DNA of 64,000 nt from Flavobacterium fluviale (GTDB lineage Bacteria > Bacteroidota > Bacteroidia > Flavobacteriales > Flavobacteriaceae), in assembly GCF_003312915.1 (NCBI RefSeq), contig NZ_CP030261.1, positions 1,426,001 to 1,490,000 of the forward strand, written 5' to 3'. Position 1 is the first letter of the stretch. Each line of letters starts with the position of its first letter. The notes under the pieces were generated by a model, which was given only the letters and a program-made list of their open reading frames with translations, was not told where the DNA came from and searched no databases. Of this stretch, positions 22,390 to 22,924 are shown one piece after another. The translations under genes were made by a program, and so were the position numbers.

Positions 22390-22415
22390 AAAAACAGAAA
22401 AGTATAAAAAACAAA

Positions 22416-22441
22416 AAACCCGAATATTTCTATTCGGGTTT
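22416..22441 (-). terminator. Second copy of the tRNA-Phe terminator hairpin
   Basis: AAACCCGAATA and TATTCGGGTTT enclose a four-base loop, followed on the minus strand by a T-rich run. The hairpin and its flanks (22405-22448) are identical for 44 bases to 22785-22828 beyond the GIY-YIG gene. Confidence 0.85.
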
Positions 22442-22485
22442 GTGGTACTTCCAGTCCCGAGGCTTCGGGAGAACCAGGGACACAT
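22441..22485 (-). pseudogene. Duplicated 3' fragment of tRNA-Phe with a hairpin insertion
   Basis: Read on the minus strand this matches the tRNA-Phe gene from the variable region (ATGTGTCCCTGGTTC) to the 3' end (CTGGA/GGTACC, here with one change), but five bases of the T arm are replaced by the 16-base hairpin TCCCGAAGCCTCGGGA. The copy cannot form a tRNA because the 5' half is missing. It directly follows the GIY-YIG stop codon and joins the duplicated terminator. Confidence 0.8.
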
Positions 22486-22487
22486 AT

Positions 22488-22772
22488 TTAGTTTCTTTTA
22501 GATAAGATATCTTTTAAAATTGACGGATCATTAATTATTTTATTATTAAAGTTTTTGCTTTTCATTCTTTTAATAAAGCGTTCCAAGTAAACAGCTTCGT
22601 CTCTGTCAGTACAATTAAAAGTCAAAACTATTTCCCAGTCATTGGCAATCTTGGTAAAGGAATTTGAATAAGAGTGATTATTGTGTTTTATTACTCTTTC
22701 GTTTATGTTATTCGTTTCGCCGATGTAAAATTTTTGAGATAATTTTGAATAGAGAATATAGAGATAATGCAT
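22488..22772 (-). CDS. Small GIY-YIG nuclease-domain protein
   Basis: From the ATG at 22772 the protein has 94 residues: MHYLYILYS and FYIGETNNINERVIKHN give the GIY-YIG strands and conserved Arg, and AVYLERFIKRMKSKNF gives the conserved Glu helix. This is the single-domain type like E. coli YhbQ, whose cellular role is poorly known. The reading frame stays open upstream through the terminator and the tRNA-Phe gene, so longer gene models are an artefact. The gene sits between the tRNA terminator and a second partial copy of the tRNA 3' end with the same terminator, which suggests it moved in as a small cassette. Confidence 0.85.
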   Translation of the reverse strand: MHYLYILYSKLSQKFYIGETNNINERVIKHNNHSYSNSFTKIANDWEIVLTFNCTDRDEAVYLERFIKRMKSKNFNNKIINDPSILKDILSKRN

Positions 22773-22795
22773 TTGAATAAGTGTTAAAAAACAAA

Positions 22796-22821
22796 AAACC
22801 CGAATATTTCTATTCGGGTTT
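22796..22821 (-). terminator. tRNA-Phe terminator
   Basis: The same AAACCCGAATA/TATTCGGGTTT hairpin as at 22416 starts 2 bases after the tRNA 3' end and is followed by a T-rich run on the minus strand. Confidence 0.85.
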
Positions 22822-22822
22822 G

Positions 22823-22895
22823 TGGTACCTCCAGGGATCGAACCAGGGACACATGGATTTTCAGTCCATTGCTCTACCATCTGAGCTAAGGTACC
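22823..22895 (-). tRNA. tRNA-Phe (anticodon GAA)
   Basis: The minus strand reads GGTACCTTAGCTCAGATGGT for acceptor and D arm, CTGAAAA in the anticodon loop (GAA), and TTCGATC for the T loop, ending AGGTACC plus discriminator A. The length is 73 bases and CCA is not encoded. Acceptor arms GGTACCT/AGGTACC pair fully. The T stem CCTGG/CCTGG has one T-T mismatch in its middle. A TATCTTTG box lies upstream and a hairpin terminator downstream. Confidence 0.95.
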
Positions 22896-22916: not shown

Positions 22917-22924
22917 CAAAGATA
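22917..22924 (-). promoter_or_regulatory. tRNA-Phe promoter -7 box (TATCTTTG)
   Basis: The minus strand reads TATCTTTG, a full match to TAnnTTTG, 21 bases before the tRNA 5' end. A TTTTG lies about 20 bases further upstream as a possible -33 box. Confidence 0.6.

Follow-up and report, generated by a model that had tools for sequence, protein, structure and literature searches.

A GIY-YIG nuclease gene packaged with a duplicated tRNA-Phe 3' end in Flavobacterium fluviale: a candidate minimal homing-type cassette with relatives on many tRNA genes of Bacteroidota

Organization of the tRNA-Phe locus of F. fluviale

The stretch of DNA analyzed here (the window) comprises 64,000 nt of Flavobacterium fluviale contig NZ_CP030261.1 (assembly GCF_003312915.1), and its source genome is referred to as G000 in the comparisons. 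On the minus strand an intact tRNA-Phe gene is followed by a terminator, a GIY-YIG ORF, a displaced tRNA-Phe 3' part (22485..22442) and a second, identical terminator. The features are as follows:

22917..22924, minus strand: Bacteroidota-type promoter element TATCTTTG, 29 nt 5' of tRNA-Phe (motif match)
22822..22895, minus strand: intact tRNA-Phe (GAA), called by ARAGORN and the same as the tRNA of empty relatives, e.g. G006
22796..22821, minus strand: proximal terminator stem-loop copy, belonging to the inserted unit (repeat search and empty-site comparison)
22488..22772, minus strand: GIY-YIG nuclease gene, 94 aa, catalytic-type residues intact (PF01541, alignment, AlphaFold2, purifying selection)
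22471..22485, minus strand: displaced tRNA-Phe copy, portion 5' of the palindrome (tRNA positions 42-56; exact 15-nt match)
22455..22470, minus strand: palindrome TCCCGAAGCCTCGGGA, replacing T-loop bases 57-61 (from the sequence; the position recurs in Phe cassettes of other species)
22442..22454, minus strand: displaced tRNA-Phe 3' end (positions 62-74, one mismatch; repeat comparison with the tRNA)
22416..22441, minus strand: distal terminator copy, which together with the downstream flank is the native post-tRNA sequence (flank ATACTTTTCTGTTTT common to empty G006)
22442..22821, minus strand: inserted unit of 380 bp, for one possible cut within the direct repeat (repeat spacing of 380 and empty sites)

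Every element named in the original prediction, i.e. tRNA-Phe, terminator, 94-codon GIY-YIG gene, second tRNA end and second terminator, is present. The two copies, predicted to be identical over 44 bases at a distance of 380, form a direct repeat of 50 nt at 98% identity, 44 nt of it exact, with just that spacing, and the 16-base hairpin claimed for the T arm was located at 22455-22470. Past this hairpin 15 nt more, GAACCAGGGACACAT, match exactly (22471-22485 and 22840-22854), and in the displaced copy the palindrome stands in for 5 nt (GATCC) of the T loop. Only the upstream copy was called as a tRNA by ARAGORN; the displaced copy was not. The motif TCCCGA-N(0-12)-TCGGGA has a single occurrence in the window (22455-22470), the chance expectation being 0.00.

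According to the ORF list, no integrase is encoded in the 380-bp unit and the GIY-YIG ORF is its sole gene. It may be noted that the longest ORF call (22488-22880, 130 aa) begins within the tRNA and hence has a false N-terminus; the nuclease gene likely starts at the ATG at 22772. No promoter motif lies between tRNA-Phe and this ATG, and only one of 47 cassettes has such a motif in the 45 nt 5' of its ATG. TATCTTTG is probably the sole promoter for the tRNA and, by read-through, which is inferred, for the nuclease gene. Since G000 has a second tRNA-Phe (C1:3564829-3564902, L061), followed by tRNA-Leu and without a cassette, the tRNA-Phe of the window is not the sole copy.

The 380-bp unit is absent from most orthologous loci

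We compared the orthologous coaX-tRNA-Phe locus in 10 genomes of the genus (not strains of one species), and found clean empty sites with one terminator in 8 of them, only G000 and G015 being occupied. In the closest empty relative, G006 (89% identity over the matched part), the tRNA and one terminator are followed by ATACTTTTCTGTTTT, which also flanks the distal copy in G000, and the sequence past the proximal copy differs from G006. As the flank in G006 is that of the distal copy, the distal copy is native, and the proximal terminator, the gene and the palindrome-bearing part constitute the inserted unit. The genome comparison thereby bears out the predicted 380-base insertion of one nuclease gene without integrase, the exact breakpoints of which fall inside the repeat and cannot be placed. 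Since the gene's 3' end and the terminator exist on both sides, the tRNA stays intact; its sequence is identical between occupied and empty genomes. The membership tests of sporadic presence with clean empty sites and of a host-gene 3' end duplicated on both sides of an endonuclease gene were both met; that of an integrase gene adjoining the rebuilt tRNA was not.

Related units lie at tRNA genes of many types

Furthermore, G000 carries one 380-bp cassette 3' of tRNA-Ala(GGC) and five tandem cassettes of 365-366 bp each 3' of tRNA-Met(CAT), the latter array ending in an apparent decayed start of a sixth ORF, and relatives are empty at these tRNA-Ala and tRNA-Met loci too. In surveys of the genus, the order, the phylum and named genomes (the last scanned with the Phe type only), matching anatomy was observed 3' of tRNA-Phe, Asn, Pro, Ala, Val, Met (several kinds), Arg and His, and also of tRNA-Leu, Asp, Trp, Thr, Gly and Ser, about 14 amino acids in total. 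Lys is uncertain as a target, because some Lys calls are pseudo-tRNA-Val. ARAGORN calls palindrome-bearing pseudo-tRNA-Val copies tRNA-Lys(TTT) or tRNA-SeC(TCA) (L072:1155-1235, L074:1119-1213, L073:1429-1508), as the hairpin loop is read as an anticodon, and false tRNA annotations are therefore to be expected in such genomes.

The Phe-type protein occurs at at least 76% identity in 3 of 41 genus genomes, and profile matches (E<=1e-16) were obtained in 53 of 118 Bacteroidota genomes, tRNA adjacency being checked for fetched loci only; in Balneolaceae MAGs the cassette sits on tRNA-Asp. Nearly all cassette-like genes (profile score at least 80) are bordered by a tRNA copy on one side or both (78/80), and where copies stand on both sides the isotypes agree for 78 of 80 genes, both exceptions being near another tRNA gene. 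Among the 18 low-scoring genes that lack a match are the full-length, ordinary-looking GIY-YIG genes. Recurrence on many tRNAs, often as tandem arrays, is thus a firm result, and what was predicted as a single element belongs to a large multi-tRNA family in which tandem arrays occur and the palindrome is a regular feature.

The family also includes units without a gene. G025 (L028) has tandem units of about 111 bp (terminator, palindrome and tRNA 3' part) alongside nuclease units, and G016 (L067) has a doubled tRNA end without the gene. A doubled end in a genome lacking the gene had been named as a refutation of the insertion, and it was met marginally by G016; its copy, however, bears a palindrome at the same T-loop spot and is, by its sequence, a gene-less derivative. 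Both kinds are non-autonomous derivatives.

Three loci may be mentioned in their own right. At L023 (G038) a cassette lies 3' of tRNA-Asp with a flanking repeat (AACCCATAGCAGGTTTWGTAG...) not recognizable as a tRNA 3' end, which is perhaps another target or a replaced one. L011 (G000:C1:4072500-4075500) holds an ordinary-looking GIY-YIG gene without a tRNA, surrounded by TTGTCATTTCGA... repeats, two of which bear a TCCCGA-type palindrome. In G079 (L254, C34:5800-10600) an array of 8 units of 359-368 bp each stands behind a tRNA-Met 3' half lacking its 5' half, which resembles the att site of an integrated element; another locus begins with a comparable half (L033:140-185).

Duplication of a tRNA 3' end is a hallmark of integrase-driven islands, and both this duplication and the G079 array behind its att-like half would suit a remnant of such an island reduced to one gene. 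A remnant would not explain why the unit keeps to a constant size (about 350-390 bp) in many families and at many isotypes, why the integrase is absent from every unit read, why a palindrome lies within the displaced copy, or why mirror-image cases exist in which the damaged copy is upstream and the intact tRNA downstream (L083, L090). This origin appears very improbable. A phage or plasmid vehicle also lacks support, for the types searched: the Phe-type protein had no match in phage records, the Ala type none in plasmids, and the Phe and Val types none in viral contigs.

The nuclease and its association with the tRNA

The ORF matches Pfam PF01541 (E=5e-13), and Y5, Y16, G18, R26, H30 and E64 are invariant in the alignment, by which the membership test for GIY-YIG catalytic-type residues was met. 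AlphaFold2 confidently predicts a single GIY-YIG domain (pLDDT 90.9). Its best PDB match is UPF0213 (1zg2), followed by SLX1 (4xlg) and, third, the catalytic domain of I-TevI, TM-scores being modest throughout; 1zg2 tops both the profile search (E 1.7e-12) and the fold search (TM-score only 0.53), which met the test for a UPF0213-like fold. The nuclease has no separate DNA-binding domain and is nearer to UPF0213/SLX1 than to I-TevI, which counts against homing. In the alignment its C-terminal stretch differs visibly between tRNA types and may be inferred to be a candidate specificity determinant.

Mapped onto a 74-protein tree, the tRNA labels require 22 changes, compared with a mean of 50.0 for shuffled labels (0 of 200 as low) and a minimum possible of 14; this tree has few columns and many weak forks, and near-copies favour a low count. 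Judged by these sequences, nuclease lineage predicts the host tRNA, and the membership test of fidelity to the target locus across species was met. Searching with the Phe-type nuclease gave 31 loci. As the original prediction had called for, related genes elsewhere lie at tRNA ends: all 19 loci with at least 51% identity to the Phe-type protein, from Flavobacterium, Christiangramia, Aquimarina and MAGs, are on tRNA-Phe 3' ends, with the gene starting 41-57 nt past the tRNA or behind an upstream array unit. Aquimarina (L214) is peculiar in that the T loop is changed in the upstream copy of tRNA-Phe too.

Estimates of dN/dS within Flavobacterium, where computable, were about 0.07-0.14 with dS saturated, and on this measure the nuclease is under purifying selection. 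It is more divergent than the adjacent coaX, with which it is only weakly correlated (Mantel r 0.32, p 0.09), and in some species pairs the nuclease is closer than coaX. Such discordance suggests horizontal spread without proving it.

At most loci both terminators are identical within the locus and different between species, which means that gene conversion between the copies, or local duplication at insertion, is also needed. Exceptions are G000 and G007 at tRNA-Ala, G005 at tRNA-Val and G004 at tRNA-Asn, where the two sides carry different terminators. The Ala locus has an element-specific, foreign proximal terminator and a native distal one; most Phe loci have both ends alike.

These data bear on the possibility that the tRNA end was merely duplicated locally together with a resident nuclease serving the host, for instance in DNA repair, without any mobility. 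Purifying selection on the nuclease and the usually host-like terminators, identical within a locus, agree with it, and unequal crossing-over can yield tandem arrays. Yet it does not account for the patchy distribution of the cassettes and the empty sites of close relatives, the many tRNA targets, the tie between nuclease type and tRNA type across genera, the foreign terminator of the Ala locus or the species pairs closer in nuclease than in coaX, and we regard it as unlikely.

The palindrome in the displaced copies

As a rule, a defined part of the displaced tRNA has given way to a palindrome of 14-20 nt, the site being characteristic of each tRNA type. For Val, Ala, Arg and Pro the palindrome takes the place of precisely the anticodon arm (about positions 28-44), in the Phe type, one Asn group and one Met group it is in the T loop, and in another Asn group in the variable region; some displaced copies have none or a decayed one, and some have two. 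The Phe hairpin occupies the same tRNA position in other species and is therefore not an accident of the window. Palindromes of the form TCCCGA-N2-10-TCGGGA are present in 73 copies in the G000 genome (reversed control, 0), several of them in the loop of a terminator or of another inverted repeat (L112, L113; loci L101-L115). They constitute a dispersed, loop-replacing palindrome family, the origin of which is not known. We had considered the palindrome as a cassette-specific end and rejected this, given the 73 dispersed copies, some of them within terminator loops. We infer that it marks the target of the nuclease, or repair at the target.

Ssn nucleases act on single-stranded DNA at dispersed repeats, and Neisseria Ssn acts on repeats resembling palindromes. 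The cassette nuclease might likewise be specific for single strands or hairpins, its substrate being a folded tRNA gene or a palindrome, e.g. in naturally transformed DNA; the chromosome would then remain uncut, and the cassette would be shielded from replacement by the empty allele or spread on single-stranded DNA. The UPF0213/SLX1-like fold, the exact replacement of tRNA stem-loops by palindromes and the dispersal of the palindrome family in the genome would suit such an enzyme, and no immunity would be needed for an identical intact tRNA if double-stranded DNA is not cut. However, there are no biochemical data, palindromes also occur at nuclease-free places such as terminator loops, and protection alone leaves spread into nuclease-free cells unexplained; we hold this to be possible, though rather unlikely. 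Equally tentative is a wider proposal, that these are phylum-wide minimal elements which read tRNA genes as folded single-stranded DNA, one arm per nuclease lineage, with the palindrome as a working part (immunity site or substrate) in a hairpin-based process distinct from homing in double-stranded DNA.

A proposed model of intronless homing

The unit consists of a terminator, a 94-aa GIY-YIG gene and a palindrome-disrupted tRNA 3' part. Clean empty sites, recurrence on other tRNAs, isotype match, the label tree, the placement of all 19 closer loci on tRNA-Phe, dN/dS, discordance with coaX, the foreign Ala terminator and the position of the palindrome lead us to favour a minimal selfish cassette of the intronless-homing type with a tRNA gene as its landing site, to which we assign a probability of roughly two in three; cleavage, the exact target and self-protection have not been demonstrated. 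According to this model, the nuclease, weakly expressed by read-through from the tRNA promoter, would recognize a site in its own tRNA gene (the T loop for Phe; the anticodon arm for Val, Ala, Arg and Pro) and break an empty copy. Recombination with cassette DNA, presumably made easier because tRNA genes are nearly identical from one species to the next, would copy the unit in and rebuild the tRNA 3' end, and the displaced copy would escape cutting because the palindrome replaces the site.

Against a homing-type cassette stand the identity of the intact tRNA, the terminator pattern and the form of the protein, together with the lack of cleavage data and of a within-species comparison of strains. 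A resistant tRNA-Ala allele was tried as a source of immunity and discarded: although most occupied loci have the anticodon stem CTTGCC/GGCAAG, so do 12 of 16 empty loci, and G025 carries a cassette despite having the other stem. With this failure, and with tRNA-Phe identical in occupied and empty genomes, the escape of the host gene remains unexplained. Since neither cleavage nor immunity has been shown, we do not class the protein as a proven homing endonuclease.

Relation to known systems and significance

For UPF0213, SLX1 and Ssn proteins, neither an association with a duplicated tRNA end in one unit nor lineages specific to a tRNA are known; the UPF0213/SLX1 proteins (PDB 1zg2, 4xlg), the best matches in sequence and fold, are small and single-domain like the cassette nuclease. 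Genomic islands targeting tRNA genes resemble the cassettes in keeping a functional tRNA and leaving a displaced 3' fragment, but the cassettes have no integrase and no cargo, are only about 380 bp long and bear a palindrome in the displaced copy. The same gene-end-replacing anatomy is seen in the mORF 'gene hybrids' of fungal mitochondria (Allomyces atp6; Glomus atp6, atp9, cox2 and nad3), where the inserted endonuclease gene brings along a copy of the host-gene 3' end and the native one comes to lie beyond the insert, the atp9 mORF being a GIY-YIG enzyme (PMC3630166). Those elements have larger endonucleases and mitochondrial protein-gene targets, in contrast to the 94-aa enzyme and bacterial tRNA genes of many isotypes described here, and the tandem arrays and the displaced-copy palindrome set the cassettes further apart from them. 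SegB of phage T4, like the cassette nuclease a free-standing GIY-YIG enzyme beside tRNA genes, is encoded between tRNA-Arg and tRNA-Ile and has its target within the tRNA region (PMC2988022). A 2026 abstract links SegB to segmental amplification, which is comparable to the tandem arrays. Seg genes, however, are phage-borne, cut at a distance and lack a duplicated gene end or palindrome, whereas the cassette units are chromosomal and sit on the tRNA itself. We found no earlier description of tRNA-based bacterial GIY-YIG cassettes in the literature on Flavobacterium/Bacteroidetes; subscription papers were not covered, and a prior account is not excluded.

If the interpretation is right, tRNA genes across Bacteroidota would host a swarm of tiny nuclease-driven elements, each specialized on one tRNA, which would account for the tandem GIY-YIG genes and the false extra tRNA calls in these genomes. 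They would provide a natural collection of small nucleases whose target specificity can be read, and a testable case of an element that targets an essential, highly conserved gene harmlessly.
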